Part shown: one piece after another, positions 5,040 to 64,000 of the stretch
Layout of the letters: every line of letters starts with the position of its first letter
Numbering within the stretch: the stretch's first letter is position 1
Position numbers and translations under genes: made by a program
Notes under the pieces: generated by a model
Database searches by the model: none
Told to the model about the DNA's origin: nothing
What the model saw: only the letters and a program-made list of their open reading frames with translations
Assembly (NCBI RefSeq): GCF_901875305.1
Contig: NZ_CABFLY010000002.1
Coordinates: forward strand, 372,001 to 436,000
Reading direction: 5' to 3'
DNA: 64,000 nucleotides
Source: Rothia mucilaginosa
GTDB lineage: Bacteria > Actinomycetota > Actinomycetes > Actinomycetales > Micrococcaceae

Positions 5040-6313
5040 TGCCGACCAACGAAGAAACTCTGGGTTACCACTCCCCGATCATCCCCGGTATGGACCAGGA
5101 GGGCGAGAAGCTCGCCACCGAGTTCGCCCACGATGACACCCTGTACCGTGCCACCGAGGCACACCACCAGGGCTCCAACCCGAACAATATCCAGAAGGTG
5201 CTGGAGGCATCCCGCGCCGAGCGTAAGACCTCATTCAACGTGGAGGACTTCGCACCCCTGACCGGTCGTGAAGAGGACTGGCGCTTCACCCCGTTGAAGC
5301 GTCTGGGCGGCCTGCACCTGGAGAAGCTGACCGGCACCGCACCGGCACCGCAGATTACTGCACCCGAGCAGGTTCAGGTTGAGACCGTCTCCCGCGATGA
5401 TGCACGCATCGGCTCCGCAGGTATCCCTGAGGACCGCGTGGCAGCGAACGCCTGGTCCAGCTTCTCCGAGGCAACCGTGGTGACCATCCCCGCTGAGGCT
5501 GAGCTGTCTGAGCACGTGGAAATCGACATCACCGGCACCGGTAACGAGGCTGCCGCACAGCACATCGTGATTGAGGCTAAGCCCTTCTCGAAGGCTGTTG
5601 TGGTTCTGCGTCACACCGGCTCTACCGTGCTCGCACAGAACATCGAGTTCGTGGTGGGTGACGAGGCTGAACTGAACGTCGTGTCCGTCCAGCAGTGGGC
5701 TGACGACGCGATTCACACCTCCGCACAGTACGCTAAGCTGGGCCGCAACTCCCGCTTCAAGCACGTGGTGGTTTCCCTCGGTGGCGACCTGGTGCGCGTG
5801 ACTCCCTCCACCAAGTTCACCGCTCCCGGCGCCGAGACTGAAATGTACGGCCTGTACTTCGTGGACGCCGGCCAGCACATTGAGTCCCGCCTGTTTGTGG
5901 ATCACTCCGTGCCTAACTGCAAGTCCCGCGTGACCTACAAGGGCGCGCTGCAGGGTAAGGGTGCGCACTCCGTGTGGGTTGGTGACGTTCTCATCGGTAA
6001 GGATGCAGAAGGTACCGACACCTACGAGCTGAACCGTAACCTGCTGCTGGAGATTGGCCCTCGCGCTGACTCTGTGCCGAACCTGGAGATTGAGACCGGC
6101 CTGATTGAGGGCGCCGGTCACGCATCCACCACCGGCCAGCTGGATGAACAGCACCTGTGGTACCTGCAGGCTCGCGGTATTCCGGAGGCTGAGGCCCGCC
6201 GTCTGGTGGTGCGCGGCTTCCTGAACGAGATTATTCAGCAGATTCGTGTTCCCGAACTTGAAGAGCAGCTCACCGAGGCCCTTGAGGCAGAGCTCGCACT
6301 CAGCAACAACTAA
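5039..6313 (+). CDS. sufD: Fe-S cluster assembly protein SufD
   Basis: SufD is the partner of SufB in the SufBC2D scaffold and is needed for iron acquisition and cluster assembly. It has 424 residues. The C-terminal half shares the SufB/SufD beta-helix family features (DTYELNRNLLL, GHASTTGQLDEQHLWYLQARGI, EARRLVVRGFLNEI). The ATG shares its A with the last base of the sufB stop codon. It is followed 18 bases later by sufC with a good ribosome-binding site. Confidence 0.95.
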   Translation: MPTNEETLGYHSPIIPGMDQEGEKLATEFAHDDTLYRATEAHHQGSNPNNIQKVLEASRAERKTSFNVEDFAPLTGREEDWRFTPLKRLGGLHLEKLTGTAPAPQITAPEQVQVETVSRDDARIGSAGIPEDRVAANAWSSFSEATVVTIPAEAELSEHVEIDITGTGNEAAAQHIVIEAKPFSKAVVVLRHTGSTVLAQNIEFVVGDEAELNVVSVQQWADDAIHTSAQYAKLGRNSRFKHVVVSLGGDLVRVTPSTKFTAPGAETEMYGLYFVDAGQHIESRLFVDHSVPNCKSRVTYKGALQGKGAHSVWVGDVLIGKDAEGTDTYELNRNLLLEIGPRADSVPNLEIETGLIEGAGHASTTGQLDEQHLWYLQARGIPEAEARRLVVRGFLNEIIQQIRVPELEEQLTEALEAELALSNN

Positions 6314-6331
6314 GCTTTACCAGGAGAAATA

Positions 6332-7090
6332 ATGTCTACTCTTGAAATCAAGGACCTTCACGTCTCGGTCATCCTCGATGACGAAACCACTAAGCCCATC
6401 CTCAAGGGCGTTAACCTGACCATCAACTCGGGCGAGATTCACGCCATCATGGGCCCCAACGGTTCCGGTAAGTCCACCCTGGCTTCTACCATTGCTGGCC
6501 ACCCCAAGTACCAGGTTGATTCCGGCCAGATTCTGCTGGACGGCCAGGACATCACCGAGATGAGCGTTGACGAGCGTGCCCGCGCAGGCCTCTTCCTCGC
6601 AATGCAGTACCCGGTTGAGATTCCCGGCGTGACCATGTCGAACTTCCTGCGTTCCGCAAAGACCGCAGTGGACGGCAAGGCTCCCTCCCTGCGTACCTGG
6701 ACCAAGGAAGTCAAGGAAGCCATGAACAACCTGGAGATTGACCCCGACTTCATCGCACGTAACGTGAATGAGGGCTTCTCCGGTGGTGAGAAGAAGCGCC
6801 ACGAGATTCTTCAGCTGGAGCTGCTCAAGCCCAAGTTCGGCATCCTGGATGAGACTGACTCCGGTCTGGACGTCGACGCACTGAAGATCGTGTCCGAGGG
6901 CGTGAACCGTGCGCACGAGGCGAACGACATGGGCGTCATGCTGATTACCCACTACACCCGCATCCTGCGTTACATCAAGCCGCAGTTCGTGCACGTGTTC
7001 GTGGACGGCAAGATGGTTGATCAGGGCGGCCCCGAGTTGGCTGACCGCCTGGAGGAAGAGGGCTACGTCTCTTACGTGGGTAAGAAGTAA
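6332..7090 (+). CDS. sufC: Fe-S cluster assembly ATPase SufC
   Basis: SufC is the ABC-type ATPase that drives conformational change in SufBC2D. Of its 252 residues, Walker A GPNGSGKST is at 41-49. The signature is FSGGEKKRHEILQL and the Walker B region ILDETDSGLDVDALK, the wording typical of SufC rather than of transport ATPases. It is in the suf operon between sufD and sufT. The ribosome-binding site AGGAGA lies upstream of the ATG. Confidence 0.96.
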   Translation: MSTLEIKDLHVSVILDDETTKPILKGVNLTINSGEIHAIMGPNGSGKSTLASTIAGHPKYQVDSGQILLDGQDITEMSVDERARAGLFLAMQYPVEIPGVTMSNFLRSAKTAVDGKAPSLRTWTKEVKEAMNNLEIDPDFIARNVNEGFSGGEKKRHEILQLELLKPKFGILDETDSGLDVDALKIVSEGVNRAHEANDMGVMLITHYTRILRYIKPQFVHVFVDGKMVDQGGPELADRLEEEGYVSYVGKK

Positions 7091-7130
7091 CCTGCTTTCC
7101 GTCACCGGATTCGACAAGAAAGACTGAACT

Positions 7131-7460
7131 ATGACTGAGACTGTTCAGGGTCGTGTTCCTCAGGAAGATATTGAGGAAGCCCTCAAGGAGGTTATCGACC
7201 CGGAGCTTGGCGTCAACATTGTTGACCTCGGCCTACTTTACGGTCTGCGCTGGGATGAGGACGGCACTCTCATCCTGGATTTGACCCTCACCACTGCGGC
7301 CTGCCCGTTGCAGGAAGTGATTGAGGAGCAGGTGCAGGCCAACCTGGAGAACGTGGTGGATTCCTGGCGCGTGAACTGGGTTTGGATGCCGCCGTGGGGT
7401 CCGGAGCGTATTACTGAGGACGGCCGCGACATGATGCGCGCGCTGGGCTTCAACATCTAG
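7131..7460 (+). CDS. sufT: MIP18/DUF59 Fe-S assembly factor SufT
   Basis: This 109-residue single-domain DUF59 protein has the motifs VIDPELGVNIVDLGL and the cysteine-containing TTAACPLQEVIEEQV. Members at the end of actinobacterial suf operons (SufT) help mature Fe-S proteins. Mycobacterial operons place sufS and sufU between sufC and this gene, but here it follows sufC after 40 bases. A strong terminator follows at 7481-7532, so this is the last gene of the operon. Confidence 0.9.
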   Translation: MTETVQGRVPQEDIEEALKEVIDPELGVNIVDLGLLYGLRWDEDGTLILDLTLTTAACPLQEVIEEQVQANLENVVDSWRVNWVWMPPWGPERITEDGRDMMRALGFNI

Positions 7461-7480
7461 GCTCCTGACTCGCAGATAGG

Positions 7481-7532
7481 TACCCGCCCGGTGCGGAAGG
7501 TGTATGCCTTCGGCACCGGGCGGGTATTTTTT
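7481..7532 (+). terminator. Terminator of the suf operon
   Basis: A perfect 14-bp stem (TACCCGCCCGGTGC / GCACCGGGCGGGTA) is followed by TTTTTT. Confidence 0.92.
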
Positions 7533-7597
7533 GTGAGGTACTGGGTATGTGGGCAGTTGATGTGTTTGTTTTGGGCGAAGCCAATTTTTTTGCTGCT

Positions 7598-7625
7598 TTG
7601 ACAATGGGGGGGGGTCCAGTATATT
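7598..7625 (+). promoter_or_regulatory. Promoter with a G9 tract in the spacer (ltp gene)
   Basis: A consensus -35 TTGACA (7598-7603) and a good -10 TATATT (7620-7625) are separated by 16 bases, of which nine are a G run. Each G gained or lost would change the spacer length; 10 G would give the optimal 17. This is the architecture of known phase-variable promoters such as porA and opc of Neisseria. The reading is from sequence only. Confidence 0.75.
7606..7614 (+). repeat. Homopolymer G9 in a promoter spacer
   Basis: Nine consecutive G lie between the -35 and -10 elements of the lipoprotein promoter. G runs of this length are prone to slipped-strand mispairing. Confidence 0.9.
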
Positions 7626-7701
7626 TCCTTGTGAATCATCCACTCACTTCATATTGGTTTTCTTTATGCAATGGCTGCTTGAGGAAAGCCGAAAGGAAAT
7701 T

Positions 7702-8283
7702 ATGGCACGAAAAATTATTGCCGCTGACGGTTCTGTCTACGTTAAGAAGAAGCCTTTCTACCTCCGCTGGTGGTTTATCGCTCTCGTCATCATTGTTCTT
7801 CTTGGCGGTTGCGCCTCGATGATTGGCGGCGGCTCGAAGAGCTCCACCACGGTAAGTGCTCCCTCATCTTCTGCGGTTGTTGATTCGTCGGCACCTAGCG
7901 CTTCTTCCGCTGCGGCAGATACCGGTACCTCTGTGGCTCCTACTACCGCTGCGGCGGAATCTAAGGCAAAGCAGAGCGATAACGTACCGAGCGAGTACAA
8001 GTCGGCGCTGAAGAAGGCAGAATCGTACTCGCGTACTATGCACATGTCGAAGCAGGGTATCTACAACCAGCTCACCAGCAATTTTGAGAAGTTCAGCCCC
8101 GAGGCGGCTCAGTACGCCGTGGATAACGTGAAGGCTGACTGGAACGCGAATGCACTGGAGAAGGCAAAGAGCTACCAGAAGACGGTTAACATGTCTCCCG
8201 AGGCAATCCGTTCCCAGCTGACTTCCTCTTTTGAAGGATTCACTGAGGAAGAGGCTGACTACGCAGTCTCCCACCTGAACTAA
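7702..8283 (+). CDS. Ltp-family surface lipoprotein
   Basis: The 193-residue protein starts at ATG 7702, which has a well-placed AAAGGAA. The longer TTG start at 7654 lacks one. A hydrophobic segment near residues 22-36 leads into the lipobox LLGGC, so it should be lipidated and anchored outside the membrane. A Ser/Ala/Thr-rich linker follows. Then come two tandem repeats of about 48 residues (YKSALKKAESYSRTMHMSKQ... and ALEKAKSYQKTVNMSPEA...) with the pattern of the Ltp domain (host cell surface-exposed lipoprotein, PF07553). Phage-encoded Ltp proteins block phage DNA entry; many chromosomal ones have unknown roles. Its promoter appears phase-variable. The function is inferred only from the family. 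Confidence 0.85.
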   Translation: MARKIIAADGSVYVKKKPFYLRWWFIALVIIVLLGGCASMIGGGSKSSTTVSAPSSSAVVDSSAPSASSAAADTGTSVAPTTAAAESKAKQSDNVPSEYKSALKKAESYSRTMHMSKQGIYNQLTSNFEKFSPEAAQYAVDNVKADWNANALEKAKSYQKTVNMSPEAIRSQLTSSFEGFTEEEADYAVSHLN

Positions 8284-8300
8284 TTCAACAGATAATTTAG

Positions 8301-8349
8301 AAGCCGCCCGGTGCATGGATACAGTATCCACACATCGGGCGGCTTTATT
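8301..8349. terminator. Terminator between convergent genes
   Basis: The stem AAGCCGCCCG(GTG) / (CAT)CGGGCGGCTT encloses a smaller hairpin (GGATAC / GTATCC). A run of T follows on the plus strand, and AA precedes the left arm. Confidence 0.8.
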
Positions 8350-8384
8350 ACACTCCGTGACTCTGTTTGCTACGGCTCGAAAGG

Positions 8385-8885
8385 CTACTCGCCCAGGCCC
8401 AGCAACTCCAGTGAGTGCTCGTACTTGATGTGCAGGCAGGAACGGGTCGGCTCTTCCAACTTCGCCAGACGGTGCGGATCCAGGTTGTCCATGATATCGG
8501 CACGCTTCACCAGACGAGCCAAATCATTGGCGCGCACGCGTCCCAGATACGAAACACGGGACTCACCGGGGCGGCGGGTGAGCGCCTCGATGGCATCCAC
8601 AATCTGTGGGGAAAAGTAGCGAGCCAGGTAGGACAGAGACACGCCGGTATCCTCCACAGTATTGTGGAGTAGAGCAACAATCTGCGCTTCTGCCTTCAAC
8701 TCCTCCAGGGAAGTGTCGGGAGAGGTCGAAGCCGCCATATCAGAGACGAGCTTGCGTGCCTCCAATGCAACACGACGCGGGTGGGAGATATAAGGCCAGC
8801 CGTTGCGGTCCGTCTGCCCCTCATGCGCCTTATCAGCGATGCTGTCTGCCAGGCGAATCATCTCTTTGTAGTAGCTATTCGTCAC
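8385..8885 (-). CDS. HD-domain protein related to RelA/SpoT-type hydrolases, altered HD motif
   Basis: The 166-residue protein resembles a stand-alone (p)ppGpp hydrolase domain. It has YISHPRRVALEA (first metal His), then LLHNTVEDTG where the family has HDxVEDT, and KRADIMDN (the late Asp). So Asp of the HD pair is Asn here. That residue binds Mn in SpoT-type enzymes, so hydrolase activity may be reduced or lost. I chose GTG at 8885 because GGAGG lies five bases upstream; the ATG four codons earlier would place that site inside the gene. It stands alone on the minus strand. Confidence 0.7.
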   Translation of the reverse strand: MTNSYYKEMIRLADSIADKAHEGQTDRNGWPYISHPRRVALEARKLVSDMAASTSPDTSLEELKAEAQIVALLHNTVEDTGVSLSYLARYFSPQIVDAIEALTRRPGESRVSYLGRVRANDLARLVKRADIMDNLDPHRLAKLEEPTRSCLHIKYEHSLELLGLGE

Positions 8886-9443
8886 GAGAACCTCCATTGG
8901 TTACGACTCGAGCAATTGACGCTACCGGCTATACAATCCGAGGTATAGATAGCTGGTACCCCTACTGTACGGCACCCTGTCAAATACCACCAGAGGAACA
9001 CCGGAAGAATGCGTAAATATGTAGATGTGACCGGACGATTAGGAGGAGCTGGAGGGGGAGGAAGCTTATTCTCCGCACCTGATGGTGTGCATCCTCCCGT
9101 AGGGGAGAAGTTTTGGGAGCCAAAGGAACAGTAGGTGCGGTATGCATGGTCCGCGAGCGCTCGGGCTACGTTGGCATAACCCCGTTCGGCGGGCCTTCGC
9201 AACCGACGCGACCCGCCCTATATCTCAGTAATTGACTCATTAAAATTCAATCTTTTTCGGAAGATCCGTTCACCAAAACCGCCCAATATAACGAACGTTT
9301 AGACCCGTTTAGGCCCCACCGATAGCAGCTCATCAAATGAAAAAAATGCGCAATTCAAAGGGGCGCCCCCGGGGCGCTGAAAACCCTCTTTCTTCCCCGG
9401 AAATAAGCGCTAAACTGTGGGTAACCAAACATCGGAGAACACC
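8886..9443. other. Intergenic region with one candidate small ORF
   Basis: This 558-base gap is less biased in composition than its neighbours. It holds the 41-codon frame at 9009-9134. The direct repeat GTTTAG-ACCC-GTTTAG (about 9298-9313) lies further right, with a possible -10 TAAACT at 9411-9416 for the next gene. An open frame on the minus strand (8882-9202) needs a TTG start and has no family signature, so I do not call it. Confidence 0.5.
9009..9134 (+). CDS. Candidate small glycine-rich peptide (41 residues)
   Basis: ATG at 9009 opens a 41-codon frame that begins MRKYVDVTGRLGG, continues with a Gly-rich stretch (GGAGGGGS) and ends GEKFWEPKEQ. An AGAGGA about 11 bases upstream could serve as a ribosome-binding site, and GGAAG lies directly before the start. 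Codons such as TTA and GGA are unusual next to neighbouring genes, which could mean foreign origin or that it is not a gene. No modifying enzyme or exporter is adjacent. Confidence 0.25.
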   Translation: MRKYVDVTGRLGGAGGGGSLFSAPDGVHPPVGEKFWEPKEQ

Positions 9444-10298
9444 ATGGCAGAGCTCTACGAGCACTTCGTCGCCCTGTATCCCTACCCTCACGAGCGAGTC
9501 CGCCACGGCGCCCCACGAGCCGAACTGAACCGGCGATACCTCGAACACCTCTACGAGGGCAAGAATAAGGGGGTAACCCCTATCGTGGTTGCCCTTGACT
9601 CTACCCTGCTCGGGACCATTGAGAACAACGTATCAGTACGCACCTCAACTCCCGTCGGCGAGATTACTGCTGAAATTATTCAGCAGTACGCGGTTGAGCT
9701 CCTCACGGCCCAGCACGAACACCTACGAGAAGTTGGCGTGGAACGGGCCGCGCATGAGGCCTTTCGAAGCCTCAACGAGACCACCTATCTGAACGCCTAC
9801 CGGCACCTCATGGATGACGGAGATCTCAGCGAGGAAGACCTCAAAGCACCGCTAGGCACGGAATATCCCTTTGAGCTGACCGCAGGAATCATCAACGAGA
9901 AGGTTAAGACCACCGATATTGAAGGGGCCTCCGAACTCCTCATCGTGGACATGCCGGTTCAAGCTGCATCCGACGTTTTCGCGTACTTCCCTTTCGGCGG
10001 ATGGGACCTCAGCCCCGCCCCCGAAACCATGCTGGCCATCGCCCGCTACTGGCTGGAGCGTGACGACGCCTATCCGGCGGTCATCGCGGCCGACTTCATC
10101 GAATTCTACACGCCGGTGCCGGTCACGACCCGCCGCGACGCCGAAATCCTGGCGGTCGAGCACACAATGGTTTCCTCGGCGATGCCGGTGCGCGTCTACC
10201 GCGGCTTCGACAAGCTCGTGGAGGCGCTCTACGGCCAGCATGACTGGTACCTGTGGTGGGAGCAACTCCCCGCCGCCCTGGTGGTTGAAACTCCCTAA
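9444..10298 (+). CDS. DUF4253-like domain protein
   Basis: The 284-residue protein starts at ATG 9444 behind GGAGA. The C-terminal third (FGGWDLSPAPETMLAIARYW ... AAYPAVIAADFIEFYTP region ... HDWYLWWEQLP) matches the general pattern of DUF4253, whose function is unknown. The N-terminal two thirds are acidic and soluble, with no motif I recognise. It is a single-gene unit: an HD-domain gene lies divergently upstream and a terminator follows at 10334-10369. Confidence 0.6.
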   Translation: MAELYEHFVALYPYPHERVRHGAPRAELNRRYLEHLYEGKNKGVTPIVVALDSTLLGTIENNVSVRTSTPVGEITAEIIQQYAVELLTAQHEHLREVGVERAAHEAFRSLNETTYLNAYRHLMDDGDLSEEDLKAPLGTEYPFELTAGIINEKVKTTDIEGASELLIVDMPVQAASDVFAYFPFGGWDLSPAPETMLAIARYWLERDDAYPAVIAADFIEFYTPVPVTTRRDAEILAVEHTMVSSAMPVRVYRGFDKLVEALYGQHDWYLWWEQLPAALVVETP

Positions 10299-28449: not shown

Positions 28450-30033
28450 ATGAGCACAATCCCCGCAAACACTCCCGAACCCCCTATCATCTCCGAAGCT
28501 GAAACCACACTCGGAGCACAACCCTCTCGCCCCAAACAACCAACCCCCACCGTGCACCACTACGCCGCCCCGGACGCCGACCGACAGCGCGGCAGCGAGT
28601 ACGCCGAGGTACTTGCCTACGAGACACAACAGCGCAAGAACGCCGCCGACCGCATCGGCAGAGGCAAACACTCCAGCGGCCACCACGAAGACCCCAACCG
28701 CGGAGACTCTTTCCACAAACCCCACCCCGAGAAGCACCCGGGTAACGGTCAGCCTCTCAATCGCCGCCTCGATCACGACTGCGGGCTAGAGGACACCCGC
28801 CGAGCCCTTGCGGAATCCATCACCAACCGCGCCAGCGACCTCACCGAAATCCTTCGAGCAATCCACGCCCATCCCGAAACCGCCTACCGCGAGCACTTCG
28901 CCTCATCCACGCTCGTCGAGGCCGTGCACACCGCGTACCCAAACCTCACCGTCACCTACCCCGCCTTCGGAATCGATACCGCCTTTGCAGTCGAGCTAAC
29001 CAGCGCCGACTATGACCCCGCCAAACACCGCACTATCGCGATTCTCTCCGAATATGACGCACTACCGGGCATCGGGCACGGTTGCGGTCACAACGTGATC
29101 GCCACAGCCGGCCTCGGAGCGTTCCTCGCCCTGACGGATGCGCTCGCGGCGACCCCGAACGCTTTCAGTGGGCGGGTTCTCTACTATGGCACGCCCGCCG
29201 AAGAGTCTGATGCCGGCAAGGAGCTCATGGCCCGCGCAGGTGCGTTTGACACCGTGGATGCCGCAATCATGGTGCACCCCTACTTCATGGATGTGGCGGA
29301 TCAGGCGTGGCTGGGCCGCCGCGAATGTCGCGTCACCTACACCGGTGTGAGTGCGCACGCCTCCTCGCATCCCTTTATGGGACGCAATGCGTTGGATGCG
29401 GCTAGCCTCGCATACCAGGGGCTCGGGCTGCTGCGACAGCAGATTCCCGGGTCGGACCGCATCCACGCGATTATTGATCGCGGGGGAGAGGCGCCGAATA
29501 TGATTCCTGCTGTTGCGAGCTTGCACATTAATATCCGTTCCAAGCATGCATCCACCCTGCGGGCGCTCTCGCGCCGTGTGGAGGAGGTGTTGCGCGGTGC
29601 CGCACTCATGGCTGGGGTGTCTGCCGAGGTGACGTGGGATAGCGCGCCTATGACTATGCCTGTGCGCGCCAACGGGCCGCTGTTGAAGCGGTGGGTGGCC
29701 TCCCAGCATGTTGTGGGTCGTCACCCGTATCCGCCCGGAACTGCTAGTGATACTCTTGCAGCCTCTACGGACTTCGGTAATGTGAGCCTGCGTGTGCCCG
29801 GTATTCACCCGCTCATTGGTATCGCTCCCGAAGATACCGGCATGCACACCGAGCAGTTCGCGGTTGCGGCCAATTCTCCCGAGGCGGTGGCTGGCGCCCT
29901 GGATGCCGCCTTTGGCTTAGCTTTTGTAGCGGTGGATTACCTGATTGATGACGAGCTAGCCCGCGACGTGCGTACCCATTTTGAGGAGGCTGGCGGCGCT
30001 GTGGATGTGGAGGGTTACTTCGAGGGGCAGTAG
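28450..30033 (+). CDS. M20 family metallopeptidase / amidohydrolase
   Basis: The 527-residue protein has an unusual Pro/His/Arg-rich N-terminus of about 115 residues, then a complete M20 aminoacylase-type domain (IHAHPETAYREHFAS, EYDALPGIGHGCGHN, GTPAEE, MVHPYFMD). The family includes AbgB-like p-aminobenzoyl-glutamate hydrolases and N-acyl amino acid hydrolases. The substrate is not evident. No clear ribosome-binding site precedes ATG 28450, so a downstream start that removes part of the low-complexity N-terminus is possible. Confidence 0.78.
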   Translation: MSTIPANTPEPPIISEAETTLGAQPSRPKQPTPTVHHYAAPDADRQRGSEYAEVLAYETQQRKNAADRIGRGKHSSGHHEDPNRGDSFHKPHPEKHPGNGQPLNRRLDHDCGLEDTRRALAESITNRASDLTEILRAIHAHPETAYREHFASSTLVEAVHTAYPNLTVTYPAFGIDTAFAVELTSADYDPAKHRTIAILSEYDALPGIGHGCGHNVIATAGLGAFLALTDALAATPNAFSGRVLYYGTPAEESDAGKELMARAGAFDTVDAAIMVHPYFMDVADQAWLGRRECRVTYTGVSAHASSHPFMGRNALDAASLAYQGLGLLRQQIPGSDRIHAIIDRGGEAPNMIPAVASLHINIRSKHASTLRALSRRVEEVLRGAALMAGVSAEVTWDSAPMTMPVRANGPLLKRWVASQHVVGRHPYPPGTASDTLAASTDFGNVSLRVPGIHPLIGIAPEDTGMHTEQFAVAANSPEAVAGALDAAFGLAFVAVDYLIDDELARDVRTHFEEAGGAVDVEGYFEGQ

Positions 30034-30458
30034 TGTCTTCGGCGTGGTGATGGCCTGAATCTGTGGTGGGCCCTCCATCGGGCGCTCCGGCGCCCCGTGA
30101 GTTTGTACTCGCGTTAGGGGGGGGTGAGGTAGCCCAAGCTGTTCAATTGGCAGGTGTGAGATTGCTCAAAAGGTCAGAACCGCATTATTTGGTTTTATGA
30201 GTGAAAAATATCCTTGCATCCTCATAAAGTCACTGCGACCCTTCAAAAAAGACAAATTAACCCAACACAAAACGCAAGTTCTTCGGCATAATAGAACATA
30301 ACGGAGCGAGGCACCGGGCAACACCCCACCTCGGCCACACGTGCACCTCGCACGGTGCGCGGTGCGACAGAAACCCGAGGCACACACCCCGCTTCGTCAC
30401 CCCGCGAGAAAACCCTCGCACAGCACAGATAACTCTCACGAAAAGAGGGCACACAGCA
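30034..30458. other. Intergenic region upstream of ldh with a G8 run
   Basis: There is a G8 run at 30117-30124, a likely ldh -10 CATAAT at about 30288-30293, and then a roughly 160-base GC-rich leader. I found no clear Rex operator. No gene seen. Confidence 0.5.
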
Positions 30459-31418
30459 ATGAACGGTGTCAACAACCCCACCAAGCTCGGCGTCATCGGT
30501 GCAGGTGGCGTCGGTAGCGCAACCGCCTACGCAGCTATGGTCCGCGGTTCCGCAGACGAAATCGTCCTGTACGACATCGACGGCAAGCGCGCACACGCAG
30601 AAGCACTGGACATCGCACACGGCGCAATGTTCGCTCACGAAGCAACCGTCACCGGTGGCGACGATATCGAACTGCTGCGCGACTGCGACATGGTCATCAT
30701 CACCGCAGGTGCTCGCCAGAAGCCGGGCCAGCCCCGCCTCGAACTGGCAGGCGCTAACGTTGCAATCCTCGAGAAGCTGCTGCCGAACGTTCTGTCCGTA
30801 GCCCCCAACGCAATCATCATGCTCGTCACCAACCCCTGTGACGTTCTGACCGTTGTGGCTCAGAAGATTAGCGGCCTGCCTGCAGACCGCGTGCTCTCCT
30901 CCGGCACCGTTCTGGACTCCTCCCGCCTGCGTTGGCTGATTGCTAACAAGGCTGGTGTCTCCATCAAGAGCGTTCACGCAAACGTTGTTGGCGAGCACGG
31001 CGACTCCGAGTTCCCCGTCTGGTCCGCAGCAAACATCGGCATGGTTCCCCTGACCGAGTGGAAGCAGGACGGCAAGCTGCTGTTCACCGAAGAGGTCCGT
31101 GCAGAGCTGGCAACCGAAGCTATGCGCGCAGCCTACAAGGTGATTGAGGGCAAGGGCTCCACCAACTACGCAATCGGTATCTCCGGTGCACGTATCGCTG
31201 AGGCATTCCTCGGCGGCCAGAACGCAGTGCTGCCCGTCTCCACCACCATCGCAGGCGAGCTGTACGGTTTCAAGGACGTTGCACTGTCCCTGCCCACCAT
31301 CGTGAACCGCGAGGGCATCCAGCGCGTGCTCGAGGTCCCCATGAACGAGGCTGAGCTGGCACAGCTGAAGGCATCCGCTGAGGCAATCCGCGCTTCGGCT
31401 GCATCGCTGGGCTTCTAA
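30459..31418 (+). CDS. ldh: L-lactate dehydrogenase
   Basis: The 319-residue NAD-dependent enzyme reduces pyruvate to L-lactate in fermentation. The Rossmann motif is GVIGAGGVGSA. Gln87 in ARQKPG marks lactate rather than malate dehydrogenase. The catalytic His is His180 in VGEHGDSEF. Codon bias is strong, in line with high expression. It is transcribed alone from a long leader. Confidence 0.95.
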   Translation: MNGVNNPTKLGVIGAGGVGSATAYAAMVRGSADEIVLYDIDGKRAHAEALDIAHGAMFAHEATVTGGDDIELLRDCDMVIITAGARQKPGQPRLELAGANVAILEKLLPNVLSVAPNAIIMLVTNPCDVLTVVAQKISGLPADRVLSSGTVLDSSRLRWLIANKAGVSIKSVHANVVGEHGDSEFPVWSAANIGMVPLTEWKQDGKLLFTEEVRAELATEAMRAAYKVIEGKGSTNYAIGISGARIAEAFLGGQNAVLPVSTTIAGELYGFKDVALSLPTIVNREGIQRVLEVPMNEAELAQLKASAEAIRASAASLGF

Positions 31419-35957: not shown

Positions 35958-37352
35958 ATGACTACTGAATTCACCCACCACAGCGCCCTCCGCGACGCCG
36001 TCACCAAAAACTTCGAAGCAACCCTGCAGACCCTCACCGACCTCGTCGCCATTCCCTCCATCGCCTGGGAATCCCACGACCTCACCCAGGTCGACCGCAG
36101 CGCAGAAGCAGTCGCCGAACTCGCCCGCAAGGCCGGCTTCGACAACGCACGCATCGAACGCGCCACCTACACCACCGCCAACGGCGCCCAAAAGCAAGGC
36201 ATGCCCGCCGTCATCGCCTCCCGCCCCGCCGCCGAAGGCTACCCCACCATCCTGCTCTACGCCCACCACGACGTACAGCCCGCCGGCAACCTCGACCTCT
36301 GGGACACCGAACCCTTCGTCGCCACCCGCAAGGGTGACCGCCTCTACGGCCGCGGCGCAGCAGACGACAAAGCAGGTATCCTCGTACACCTCGCCGCGCT
36401 CGCAGCCCTCAACGAAACCCTCGGCGACGACTTCAAACTCGGCGTGAAACTCTTCATCGAAGGCGAAGAAGAAGCAGGCTCGCCCTCCTTCACCTCCTTC
36501 CTCAACACCTACCGCGACGAACTATCCGCCGACTACATCGTCGTCGCAGACTCCGGCAACTGGCGCGCCGGCGTACCCGCACTCACCACCAGCCTGCGCG
36601 GCGTCGCATCCGGAGACATCGAAGTACGCGTCGGCAGCCACGCCATCCACTCCGGCATGTTCGGCGGCCCCATGCTCGACGCCCACACCCTCATGGCACA
36701 GCTACTGGCCACCCTGCACGACGCCACCGGCGCCGTAGCCGTCGAAGGCCTGCACCGCGCCCCCCAACCCGAACTCGAATACGCAGAAGCAGACTTCCGC
36801 AGTGACTCCGGCATCCTCGACTCCGTACCCCTGGCAGGTACCGGTAGCATTGCATCCCGCCTGTGGACCCAGCCGGCCATCTCCGTCATCGGCATGGACA
36901 TCCCCTCCATCGCAACCTCCTCCAACACCCTCGCCGTCGTATCCCGCGCACGCATCAGCACCCGCCTCGCCCCCGGCGACACCCCCAAAAACGCACACCG
37001 CGCGCTCACCGAGCACGTCAAGGCCCACGCACCCCACGGCGCAGAGGTCAGCTACACCGCCGTCGACTCCGGTATGCCCTTCTCGACCGAAGTCGATGCA
37101 GACGGCGCACAGACCGCCCTCGACGCCATGCGCGCCGCCTGGGATCTGGAACCCGTACAGACCGGCATGGGCGGCTCCATCCCGTTCATCTCCGACCTGA
37201 AGGAGGTCTTCCCGCAAGCACAGATCCTCGTCACCGGTGTGGAAGACCCCGATACCCGCGCCCACAGTGCCAACGAGTCCCTCTACATCCCGGACTTCAA
37301 GAACGCAATCCTGGCGGAGGCACTGCTGCTCAGTGGCCTCGGCACCCGCTAG
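35958..37352 (+). CDS. M20 family dipeptidase
   Basis: The 464-residue cytoplasmic metallopeptidase has metal ligands in YAHHDVQPAG, RGAADDKAG and EGEEEAGSPSF, with a later GMGGSIPFI typical of the CNDP/PepV-like group. It would cleave dipeptides. Codons here favour CTC and GAA, unlike the CTG/GAG preference of pyrD. GGTAAGGTAG lies upstream of the ATG. Confidence 0.9.
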   Translation: MTTEFTHHSALRDAVTKNFEATLQTLTDLVAIPSIAWESHDLTQVDRSAEAVAELARKAGFDNARIERATYTTANGAQKQGMPAVIASRPAAEGYPTILLYAHHDVQPAGNLDLWDTEPFVATRKGDRLYGRGAADDKAGILVHLAALAALNETLGDDFKLGVKLFIEGEEEAGSPSFTSFLNTYRDELSADYIVVADSGNWRAGVPALTTSLRGVASGDIEVRVGSHAIHSGMFGGPMLDAHTLMAQLLATLHDATGAVAVEGLHRAPQPELEYAEADFRSDSGILDSVPLAGTGSIASRLWTQPAISVIGMDIPSIATSSNTLAVVSRARISTRLAPGDTPKNAHRALTEHVKAHAPHGAEVSYTAVDSGMPFSTEVDADGAQTALDAMRAAWDLEPVQTGMGGSIPFISDLKEVFPQAQILVTGVEDPDTRAHSANESLYIPDFKNAILAEALLLSGLGTR

Positions 37353-37727
37353 GCGCCGAAGAATCACCCCAACGCACCGCGGTGTGCCGGACACGCAACT
37401 AGCCCACCGGCGCACCGCAACGCGGTAGCACAGAATACGAGGCAGGGGAGTAGTCCCCCCCCCAACGGCTGGGTAACAAGGGCCGGGGACCTGTCCGCGG
37501 ACCAACCAATGAGTCCCCGGACACCCTCCCCACCACCCCCGCCATAAATTCGGTATCCTAGAAGCAGAATTACCGTGAAAGCCCATACGCAAACGCTCAC
37601 GCCCCCGGCGAACTACACACAACCCAGGTTGTCAAGAACTCACCCCGGCGCGTATCGTGAAGGCTAAAACGCCCGAAACACCGCACACGGCCAACACGGG
37701 CAATCAACACAACAAAGGACAACACCA
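37353..37727. other. Intergenic region with a C9 run
   Basis: There is a C9 run at 37455-37463 and an inverted repeat CCGGGGAC (37483-37490) / GTCCCCGG (37513-37520) that encloses the palindrome GTCCGCGGAC. I could not link the C run to a promoter. No gene seen. Confidence 0.5.
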
Positions 37728-38081
37728 ATGAGTGAAACCACCACCGAACTGCCCACCCACGGCGTCACCCTCACCGAGGTCGCACAGGCCAAGGTCCGCG
37801 CACTCCTCGAACAGGAAGGCCGCAACGACCTGCGCCTGCGCATCGCCGTCCAGCCCGGCGGCTGCTCCGGCCTCATCTACCAGCTCTACTTCGACGAGCG
37901 CGTCCTCGACGGCGACGCAGTCCGCGACTTCGACGGCGTAGAGGTCATCGTCGACAAGATGAGCGCACCCTACCTCGACGGCTCCACCATCGACTTCGAA
38001 GACACCATCGAAAAGCAGGGCTTCTCCATCGACAACCCCAACGCAGCAGGCTCCTGCGCATGCGGTGACTCCTTCCACTAA
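37728..38081 (+). CDS. erpA: A-type Fe-S cluster carrier (HesB/IscA/ErpA family)
   Basis: The 117-residue protein carries the three conserved cysteines: Cys46 in GGCSG, and Cys110 and Cys112 in SCACGDSF. A-type carriers hand Fe-S clusters from scaffolds such as SufBCD to target enzymes. AAAGGA precedes the ATG. It is monocistronic, with a strong terminator before trpD. Confidence 0.92.
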   Translation: MSETTTELPTHGVTLTEVAQAKVRALLEQEGRNDLRLRIAVQPGGCSGLIYQLYFDERVLDGDAVRDFDGVEVIVDKMSAPYLDGSTIDFEDTIEKQGFSIDNPNAAGSCACGDSFH

Positions 38082-61041: not shown

Positions 61042-61174
61042 CATGGATGGAGCAATGACCACTGAGCAATTGGGGCTACTCATTTTTGGTTAGACTTGAG
61101 GGGAGTCCGTGGAAATCCTCTGCGGGCAGAAACACCTTAGTGCCCAAGAATTATGGGGCAAAGGAAAGAGTATT

Positions 61175-64000
61175 GTGACTGATTTCAACTCACTGATTGC
61201 CGAGTTCGGCAGGCAGGTGCGGGAGAACCTGCGTTTTGGGGAAGGTGAACCGGAGGCTCAGCTGACGAACCCGGTAGCCACCCTTCTGAAGGGTTTTGGC
61301 GCTCTGCATTCAATGGAAGTTCAGACCGTCCGTGAGTCCTCGCTGAAAACAGCGGGGGGGGGGGTCTAGTTTCTGAGGGTCTGGTTCGCCCTGATTACGC
61401 CATCATGGTCGATGGTGTTTTAACCGGTTATGTGGAGCTGAAGGCTCCGGGTAAGAACATTGACCCCGCTTCTTTTGGTAAGAAGAGCCACGAATATAGG
61501 CAGTGGCAGCGTCTGCGGAACCTTCCCAACCTTTTGTACACCAACGGCACCGAGTGGCGTCTTTATCGTTATGGTAAGCCTATACCGACAGGCTCTGAGA
61601 AAAACGATAACGCAGTAAACGTAAGTGCTGGTTCATTCATCATCAGGAATAAGCGTGTTCTATTTCCTGAAAAAATTACATGGAGTGCTCCGGCCGATCT
61701 GGCTACCCTTTTCCTGAATTTCTTGCGCTGGGTACCGGCTCCTATTACAAGCGCTGACCGATTGGTGGAAACCTTAGCGCCCCTGGCAGCACTGCTACGT
61801 GAGGAAATGCTGGTGAGTCTCACGGCGCAGGAGAAAACGGATGCGTCGAAACGCACCAAGGCGGAGAAAAAGGGCGAGGAAGATGAAGTTACTCTTCCCA
61901 AGCTGGTGGGTCTGCGTAAGGATTGGCGCGATACTCTCGCTCCCAATACGAGCAATGAAGAGTTCGCCGATAGCTTTGCCCAGACTGTGGTGTTCTCGCT
62001 GGTGGTCGCTCTCTCAGAGAATCTCGACCTCAACCTCGATACCTTCTCATCGATGATTCGTCGTCTGCGCTCTCAGCATGGCCTGCTGGGCAATGCGTTG
62101 AGTCTTCTCACTGAGCATCTGGATGAGGATAGTTCCTTGTATAGCACTTTGGCTGTTATTGTGCGTGTGATGAACGCTGCGTCATGGCCAGATATTTCCA
62201 GCGGTAAGTCAGACGTATACCTGCACCTCTACGAGCACTTCCTGAAGGTCTATAACCCCGAGCAGCGTAAGAAGACCGGTAGCTACTACACCCCCGTTGA
62301 GGTGGTGGACCAGATGGTGCGCCTGGTAGATGACGCTCTGCGTGCCTACCTGGGCAAGGAACACGGTCTGGCGAGTGAGGGTGTGTCCGTGATTGACCCG
62401 GCGATGGGTACCGGCACCTATCCTCTGTCGGTGATGCATAGGGTGGCGAAGACGGAGAGCCTCGCTCCCGCTGCACGTACTCGTGCCCTGAATCGTCTGG
62501 CAAAGAACCTGTACGGCTTTGAGTTACAGTCGGGTCCTTTCTCCGTGGCTGAGCTCCGTCTGAACGAGACGCTTAAAGAGATGGGTGCTGATATTCCTGA
62601 GGACGGTCTAAATCTCTATGTAGCGGATACTCTGAGCGACCCCTACGCTAAGCAGAAGCCGGTGAACAGTCAGACCCTGCGCCTGCTCTCTCAGCTGTCG
62701 AATAAGGCAACTAGGGTGAAGCGTGAGGTGCCTATTCAGGTGTGCATTGGTAATCCGCCGTATAAGGATAAGGCGGAGGGTATGGGCGGCTGGGTGGAGT
62801 CGGGCTTCCGCTCTGCCGATGTCGCCTCCCCCATTCTGGATGACTTCCGTGCACCGGGTATGGGTAGGTACGAGTATGTGCTGAAGAACCTGTACGTCTA
62901 TTTCTGGCGCTGGGCGTTCTGGAAGGTCTTTGAGGATTCTTTCCGTGCTCTGGAAGGTCAGCCCGATAGTGCTCAACGTGCGGGTGTGGTCTGTTTTATT
63001 ACTGCATCTGGCTATCTGAATGGGCCCGGTTTCGCGGGAATGCGCGAGTATATTCGCCGTTCGTCTAGCCGCGGCTGGATTATTAACGTGACTCCTGAGG
63101 GCAAGCGCCCGCCGGCGAAGAACGCTGTCTTTGCTATTGAGACTCCGGTGTCTATTGCCCTGTTTTTGCGTGAAGAGGACACTAATGAGCAGGTTTCTGC
63201 GGATATTCGTTATGTGGCTCTGCACGGAACATATCCAGAGAAAATGCAGGCTCTTGCAGCCCTCGAACTGGATAGCGCAGAGTTTGAACCGGCGCGTTCC
63301 GGCTGGGGTGATAAGTTCGCTCCCGAAGCGGGTGGTGACTGGGATAGCTACCCTGAATTGCCTGATTTCTACCTAGACCATTTTCCTGGGATTAATCCCT
63401 CTAGGTCGTGGGTATATGATCCTTCCCCATCCATTTTGGAAGAACGCTGGGCTGAACTGATTGAGGGCACCGATTTGCAGGTACGTGCTGAGCGTTTCAA
63501 GAAAACTGATAGCACCAGTATCTTCGCAGGTAAAAAACCGCTTCCCGGAGAAGATACTTTCCAAGGAAGTCATGAAAGCCTTAACGACCAGATTGCTCGC
63601 GAGGTTATTCCGGATGCGCCGAATATTGTACCGGTAGGATATCGTTCCTTTGACCGTCAGTATATTTTGGCTGATGCTCGTCTAATTCACAGGCCCTCAC
63701 CCAAATTATGGGAATATCGCATTCCTGACCAGATTTTTATTGTGGAACAGCACGCACACTACCCCAAAGCAGGTCCAGGGTTGTTCTTTAATACCCTCAT
63801 TCCCGATAAACACTCATTTAAGGGAAGTGAGGGTGGACGAGCTCACCCGACGCTGAATACTGGTGGTACGCCAAACCTCACCGAGTCTGCCGAGCAGATG
63901 CTCCGCGAGCGCTTCGGCAACAATGCTCCCGGCGACCTCGTTTACTACCTGGCGGCACTCACCGGTCACCCCGGATACGTGCGCACCTTTGACGAGCCGC
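61175..64000 (+). CDS. Single-chain restriction-modification enzyme (type ISP/IIG-like), frame broken at G11, partial
   Basis: Translation from GTG 61175 gives VTDFNSLIAEFGRQ and continues to a TAG right after the G11 run (61354-61364). In the +1 frame the sequence is then open from the tract to the window end (checked codon by codon), more than 870 codons. Joined, the protein has an N-terminal PD-(D/E)xK nuclease (GEPEAQL, RPDYAIMVDG, YVELKAPGK). Next comes an N6-adenine methylase (KTGSYYTPVEVV, VIDPAMGTGTYPL, NPPY). A C-terminal specificity region follows, resembling Type ISP (SFDRQYILADARLIHRP, YYLAALTGHPGYVRTF). No helicase domain lies between nuclease and methylase. Twelve G would fuse the frames, so this copy is in the OFF phase or has a sequencing error in the run. 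The 3' end is outside the window. Confidence 0.85.
61354..61364 (+). repeat. Homopolymer G11 within the restriction-modification gene
   Basis: Eleven G lie after codon 59. As sequenced, the frame stops three bases after the run. With 12 (or 9) G the reading frame would be intact, which is the classic layout of a contingency locus. Confidence 0.9.

Follow-up and report, generated by a model that had tools for sequence, protein, structure and literature searches.

Putative phase variation of a Type IIG-like restriction-modification gene by poly-G slippage in a Rothia mucilaginosa-type commensal

We consider it highly likely that a Rothia mucilaginosa-type commensal carries a phase-variable restriction-modification (R-M) gene, encoding a single-chain, Type IIG-like enzyme, whose reading frame is set by slippage within a poly-G tract. 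The gene of this mouth-dwelling bacterium very probably flips on and off at random. The tract's variation in length, the existence of two states and selection on the frame hidden behind the tract were read from sequence; enzyme activity and the rate of slippage in culture are what we infer.

In the proposed switch, replication slippage would alter the G count of the tract, which lies within a loop of the N-terminal nuclease-like domain. One length class modulo 3 (6 and 9 G were seen) would be read through, yielding a full enzyme of about 1122 to 1148 aa. The remaining lengths would lead the ribosome into a TAG or TGA at most 12 bases past the tract, leaving a peptide of about 65 aa. Because the nuclease motif, the methylase and the specificity domain all lie behind the tract, cutting and protection would be lost and regained together. 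By analogy with the Campylobacter gene cj0031, the benefit would be phage defence in the on state, and DNA uptake or altered methylation and expression in the off state.

Results

The tract and its reading frames

The window, by which we mean the whole 64-kb stretch of DNA analysed, contains on its forward strand a homopolymer of exactly 11 G (Table 1); direct reading bears out the count given in an earlier note on this DNA, and the count is as assembled, from the assembly alone. No other homopolymer in the window reaches this length; a first-order Markov model of the window expects 0.05 runs of G and 0.03 of C with at least 11 bases. For GGGGGGGG, 9 were found where 5.0 were expected, a count reached by 11 of 100 shuffles, so the shorter runs show no significant excess. 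The codon GGG is rare, making up 19 of 347 glycine codons in the window genes counted.

The frame in front of the tract opens at a GTG codon behind a likely ribosome-binding site. The start codon and the GGAAAG part of the site are conserved in three orthologous loci (L001, L009 and L010, described below). As the earlier note had said, this frame ends in a TAG just behind the tract. A TGA closes the third phase, and the two stop codons, one for each off phase, lie at most 12 bases behind the tract in a stretch that is identical in all four orthologous loci, the window's included. The long open frame that the note had described after the tract was also found; it runs to the end of the window, and its listed ORF has 865 codons from the first ATG. 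Natural fragments resembling the off-phase upstream piece are present in the protein database.

Table 1. Features of the tract region, in window coordinates
Feature	Positions	Strand	Basis or remark
Likely ribosome-binding site AGGAAAG	61162..61168	+	before GTG 61175; sequence read
Off-phase upstream piece, 64 codons, GTG 61175 to TAG 61367-61369	61175..61369	+	sequence read
G11 slippage tract (putative)	61354..61364	+	sequence read; other lengths in orthologues
Gene continuation in the other frame, open past the window end	61365..64000	+	first ATG 61405
TGA closing the third phase (phase of G7 and G10 alleles)	61374..61376	+	sequence read; N-terminal fragments ending SSF
Nuclease-type motif: RPD 61387-61395, ELK 61435-61443	61387..61443	+	invariant residues in relatives
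N6-adenine methylase domain PF02384 (N6_Mtase)	62209..62772	+	profile match, E 7.1e-13
Methylase motifs DPAMGTGT and NPPY	62395-62418 and 62752-62763	+	sequence read
Type_ISP_C specificity (target recognition) domain PF18135, cut by the window end	63379..63996	+	profile match, E 9.1e-32

Domains and class of the enzyme

The earlier note had placed nuclease, methylase and specificity regions in the frame behind the tract. Profile matches identify the methylase and the specificity domain (Table 1). In P0140, a natural full-length relative, the nuclease shows up solely through conserved residues, an HSDR_N match below threshold and the topology of a structural model. The conserved residues P72, D73, E87 and K89 of the P0140 N-terminal region are invariant across nine aligned relatives. 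They belong to the RPD and ELK elements, which we take to be a PD-(D/E)XK-like nuclease motif. In P0140, PF02384 and PF18135 both score above their cut-offs (PF18135 at E 1.6e-62), the HSDR_N match falls below its curated cut-off, and the PADLOC model REase_MTase_IIG covers residues 4 to 1137 with 812.8 bits. The two pieces in the window align one after the other to a single PADLOC Type IIG model, PDLC03631; the 86-aa upstream ORF matches model positions 4 to 51, weakly (E 0.00094), and the downstream piece matches positions 69 to 881 (E 6.5e-199).

The AlphaFold model of P0140 is weak overall (mean pLDDT 60), and we therefore used only its N-terminal domain topology and its top fold matches. 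The helix-strand topology of the N-terminal domain would fit a PD-(D/E)XK nuclease, with the glycine run in a low-confidence loop (residues 55 to 70) between strands at 49 to 53 and 74 to 78. The best fold match for this model is DrdV (PDB 7LO5/7LVV; Foldseek E 2.4e-23), which we take to be a Type IIG restriction-methylase and which, at 1029 aa, is near the Rothia protein in size; the pair share only about 15% identity and TM-scores of 0.30 to 0.34 on a model of pLDDT 60. LlaBIII and LlaGI follow in the order of fold matches, all with TM-scores near 0.3. By sequence, DrdV is the second-best match (E 4.7e-20), with LlaBIII just ahead of it.

Databases label the Rothia protein 'type ISP', and its specificity domain PF18135 is named after that class. 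Type ISP enzymes carry a helicase-like ATPase motor in the same chain. The Type ISP enzymes LlaBIII (4XQK) and LlaGI (5FFJ) have the methylase in common with the Rothia protein by sequence, but they are longer (1578 and 1406 residues in their entries), LlaBIII is titled ATP-dependent, and a search for helicase and ATPase families, carried to E up to 1, gave none in P0140 or in the proteins of L002 and L006. We rejected the Type ISP filing because this motor domain was not found. Judged by domains only, endonuclease, methylase and specificity functions reside in one polypeptide, as in Type IIG, and on its sequence the gene product is a single-chain Type IIG-like restriction-methylase. Across 180 distinct relatives, the most variable part of the protein falls in the stretch matching the specificity domain. 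The methylation motifs that are switched may consequently differ between strains.

Alleles in related genomes

We searched 35 Rothia genomes with the locus of Rothia sp. RSM386 (locus L001, genome G001) as the query. Twelve of them match, three at 88% identity or more, G001 itself being one of the three. The gene that lies next to the R-M gene on its upstream side in the window is its neighbour in loci L001, L009 and L010 too, with 95-96% DNA identity. The tract is G8 in L001 and the gene is off; it is G9 in L009 and the gene is intact, with 1124 aa; it is G10 in L010 and the gene is off in the other phase than with G8. With the window's G11, four orthologous loci thus have four tract lengths and only G9 is intact. 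In the DNA of these four loci, the repeat lies in the reading frame and its length sets the gene on or off.

In a comparison of window 61100-63998 with L001, L009 and L010, the R-M gene is 80.6-86% identical in DNA over its main part, compared with 95-96% for the upstream flank. It looks as if the gene is diversifying or recombining faster than this flank.

Outside the group, relatives keep the ORF intact and lack a glycine run. These are R. nasimurium (L002), Arthrobacter (L003), R. amarae (L004) and two distant loci (L005 and L006), and they fill eight fewer alignment columns at the tract position. The run scan covered bases 5501 to 9500 of each locus; the genes of L005 and L006 start outside that range, and for these two the absence of the glycine run is taken from the alignment. 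Because the outside relatives have an intact ORF without the run, the tract seems to have been gained within the R. mucilaginosa group, at a site that tolerates changes in length. The group is labelled from the source names of the close matches P0109 and P0175, together with L001. Among plasmid records, no megablast match to 61100-63998 was found, and among viral contigs no exact match to the tract-plus-flank pattern.

Alleles among database proteins

Two protein searches, taking the best 120 of 3742 and the best 120 of 4982 matches, provided 210 distinct proteins longer than 900 aa, all of which we classified. Among these listed homologues, the reading frame crosses the tract in 71 and the protein starts behind it in 139, a ratio that is not a frequency because the database is non-redundant. 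The read-through proteins have three glycines (9 G) in 70 of 71 cases and two glycines (6 G) in P0040; none of the 71 listed has the four glycines of a 12-G tract. A search with the N-terminal piece found 14 short proteins, nine of which could be decoded (seven to G10, one to G8 and one to G7; three of the G10 fragments, P0122, P0129 and P0132, have a changed residue behind the tract). Of the other five, P0125 is off but does not reveal its length, and four (P0121, P0130, P0133 and P0134) are uninformative. These lengths are decoded from residues rather than DNA, under the assumption that the proteins use the GCG-GGG codons of the four DNA loci. All lengths from 6 to 11 are represented, G11 only by the window and lengths 6 and 7 once each.

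Switching, decay and other explanations

To compare the on and off states with ancestry, we used FastTree on the sequence behind the tract alone, with 214 rows of which 142 are off and 72 on. The resulting tree requires at least 56 changes of state, and shuffled labels give a mean of 59.4; counts as low as the observed one occurred in 75 of 500 (off) or 86 of 500 (on) shuffles. Ancestry is almost no predictor of the on/off state, and in the four-row set around the window three rows are off and one is on. Among 24 sets of proteins that are identical over the 1037-1039 residues behind the tract, 21 contain both states, which is not a rate because the database is non-redundant and one-state sets are under-listed. 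The length varies among close relatives in a manner that would be reversible in evolution, the changes on the tree being counted whatever their direction.

A decaying pseudogene, its frameshift a fixed loss in the lineage, would also produce off alleles; the window is off, and so are two of the three orthologous genome loci and 139 of the 210 listed database proteins. However, dN/dS behind the tract is 0.119-0.128 between off alleles (0.118-0.190 for all six pairs), and the off alleles have no stop in 869, 1051 and 1052 codons. From these comparisons, purifying selection acts on the hidden frame, also where both of the alleles compared are off; such a low dN/dS would not persist in a dead gene. 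Both states are also held by the window's own small clade and by the 21 identical-sequence sets, and we regard decay as very improbable. The off alleles could instead be homopolymer errors of sequencing or assembly, since long G runs are hard to read and the window's count rests on an assembly. Excerpts of a Bifidobacterium breve study describe a pilus-gene tract, annotated as G11, in which about 37% G11 and about 60% G12 coexist in single-colony cultures, and report problems with reads (PMC9187656). Against such errors, the off types are the majority of the listed proteins and occur in both off phases; the tract of L001 is short, at 8 G, and the assembly it comes from bears the title NODE ... 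cov_73 (in SPAdes style, from which the read type is inferred); and the relatives outside the group keep the frame intact without a tract. There is little chance that misreading accounts for the off alleles.

A leaky off state is another possibility, in which reinitiation or transcriptional slippage would supply an N-truncated protein that still methylates, so that restriction but not methylation is toggled. L001 has a GTG 14 bases past the off-phase TAG, with GAGGG between them (L001:5977-5982), as a possible reinitiation site, and the annotated start is at the corresponding residue in 101 of the 139 listed off-type database proteins. Those starts were picked by gene-calling programs, not by experiments, and the window, L009 and L010 all have GTT in place of this GTG. 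The use of GTG at the L001 site is also not clearly selected, because this codon stands for valine in 150 of 311 instances among the window genes counted. The ATG at 61405 has no ribosome-binding site in reach, and a start there omits the RPD motif. We judge a leaky off state improbable. Programmed translational frameshifting could instead supply a constant low amount of the full enzyme, the long G run and the stop just behind it being a possible slippery site. Yet the tract's length varies over three phases, and natural in-frame alleles exist that a frameshift signal would not need. The variable length does not favour such a signal, and we consider it extremely improbable.

Phase variation by poly-G slippage, which the earlier note had proposed, is supported by tract lengths from 6 to 11, by identical sequences in two states, by the near-random spread over the tree and by purifying selection. 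The note had also named two observations that would speak against it. A fixed length, in the form in which it was put, is not what we found, as the tract varies among relatives; and instead of other disabling mutations, the off alleles of L001 and L010 keep 1051-1052 open codons.

Other G and C runs

The window contains four G or C runs of at least 8 bases. The three besides the tract are outside likely genes, and two of them are overlapped by small or antisense open frames. A G9 run (7606-7614) precedes a 209-codon ORF (7654-8283), with 39 bases between the run and the ORF's first possible start. By eye the ORF resembles a membrane-anchored surface protein, and the run could act on transcription. 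The gap between the ORFs 28450-30033 and 30459-31418 contains a G8 run (30117-30124). A C9 run (37455-37463) is located between the ORFs 35958-37352 and 37728-38081, where an antisense open frame overlaps it.

Runs of at least 9 G or C, counted from the listed places, number 16 in G015 and 15 in G016, two genomes that look complete. We took 28 stretches (L051 to L078) around their runs outside the R-M gene; on visual inspection, many of the runs fell between long ORFs and several inside an open frame on one strand or the other. Other switches, of a promoter type, are possible in these genomes. In L066 (G016:C1:288400-291400), a G9 run lies among open frames with SPLARGA-like repeats, which resemble a CRISPR repeat array read as protein. 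In L069 (G016:C1:982400-985400), a C9 run is directly followed by a G9 run (1465-1482), forming a perfect 9-base hairpin without a loop.

Discussion

The closest known system by description is cj0031 of Campylobacter jejuni NCTC11168, as presented in the accessible portions of its report (PMC4889913). Like the Rothia gene, this Type IIG gene encodes a single-chain endonuclease-methylase, carries an in-frame poly-G tract able to split the gene in two, has a target recognition domain that varies by strain, and has homologues without a tract. It differs in its length of 1243 aa and in having conserved domains on both sides of the tract (PMC4889913). In Rothia, a member of a different phylum, the nuclease motif, methylase and specificity domain are all behind the tract. 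The behaviour of cj0031 is known from laboratory work, including its methylome, phage plating and RNA-Seq, whereas the Rothia gene is known from sequence; in its on state, cj0031 reduces the plating of 12 phages by 5- to 1000-fold, according to the same portions (PMC4889913).

Another similar system is found in the sortase pilus genes of B. breve. These also belong to an actinobacterium and have a G11/G12 tract within a coding sequence, where slippage joins or separates two ORFs (PMC9187656, in excerpt). In B. breve, the slippage was measured and a surface pilus is switched, not a DNA methylase (PMC9187656, in excerpt). The Rothia switch would be a new example of the known poly-G Type IIG kind, with no earlier case found in the phylum. 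In the literature searched, mostly outside subscription journals and in part as excerpts, we found no report of a phase-variable R-M switch in Rothia, Micrococcaceae or actinobacteria. In the accessible part of one paper that combines Rothia and phase variation (PMC13004514), the sole mention sits in the reference list.

The repair background of the genus is consistent with a tolerance for such tracts. MutS (PF00488, MutS_V) was found in none of three Rothia genomes other than the window's own, with 11 of 14 known genomes positive as a control, and NucS (PF01939) was found in all three, with 7 of 14 in the control. Indels of 1-2 bases are not repaired by NucS in M. smegmatis, which the authors, in excerpts of their report, link to homopolymer phase variation (PMC11551767). 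The Rothia case fits the idea that NucS-reliant actinobacteria tolerate homopolymer switches.

A bolder reading, which we offer tentatively and think somewhat unlikely, is that of a true phasevarion in a commensal actinobacterium for which no MutS was found. Slippage in the Type IIG poly-G tract would then flip genome-wide adenine methylation together with phage restriction, strain-specific specificity domains would give the species a wide range of switchable epigenotypes, and where a strain has the internal GTG, its off phase may amount to a third state with the methylase only.

As far as the excerpts consulted indicate, phase-variable R-M systems have been described mainly from pathogens, with Campylobacter providing the best-studied poly-G Type IIG case. 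Because natural on and off alleles of the commensal's gene are present in public data, the purpose of such switches, whether phage defence, gene exchange or regulation, can be tested in existing isolates. The methylomes and phage sensitivity of Rothia may vary inside one strain.
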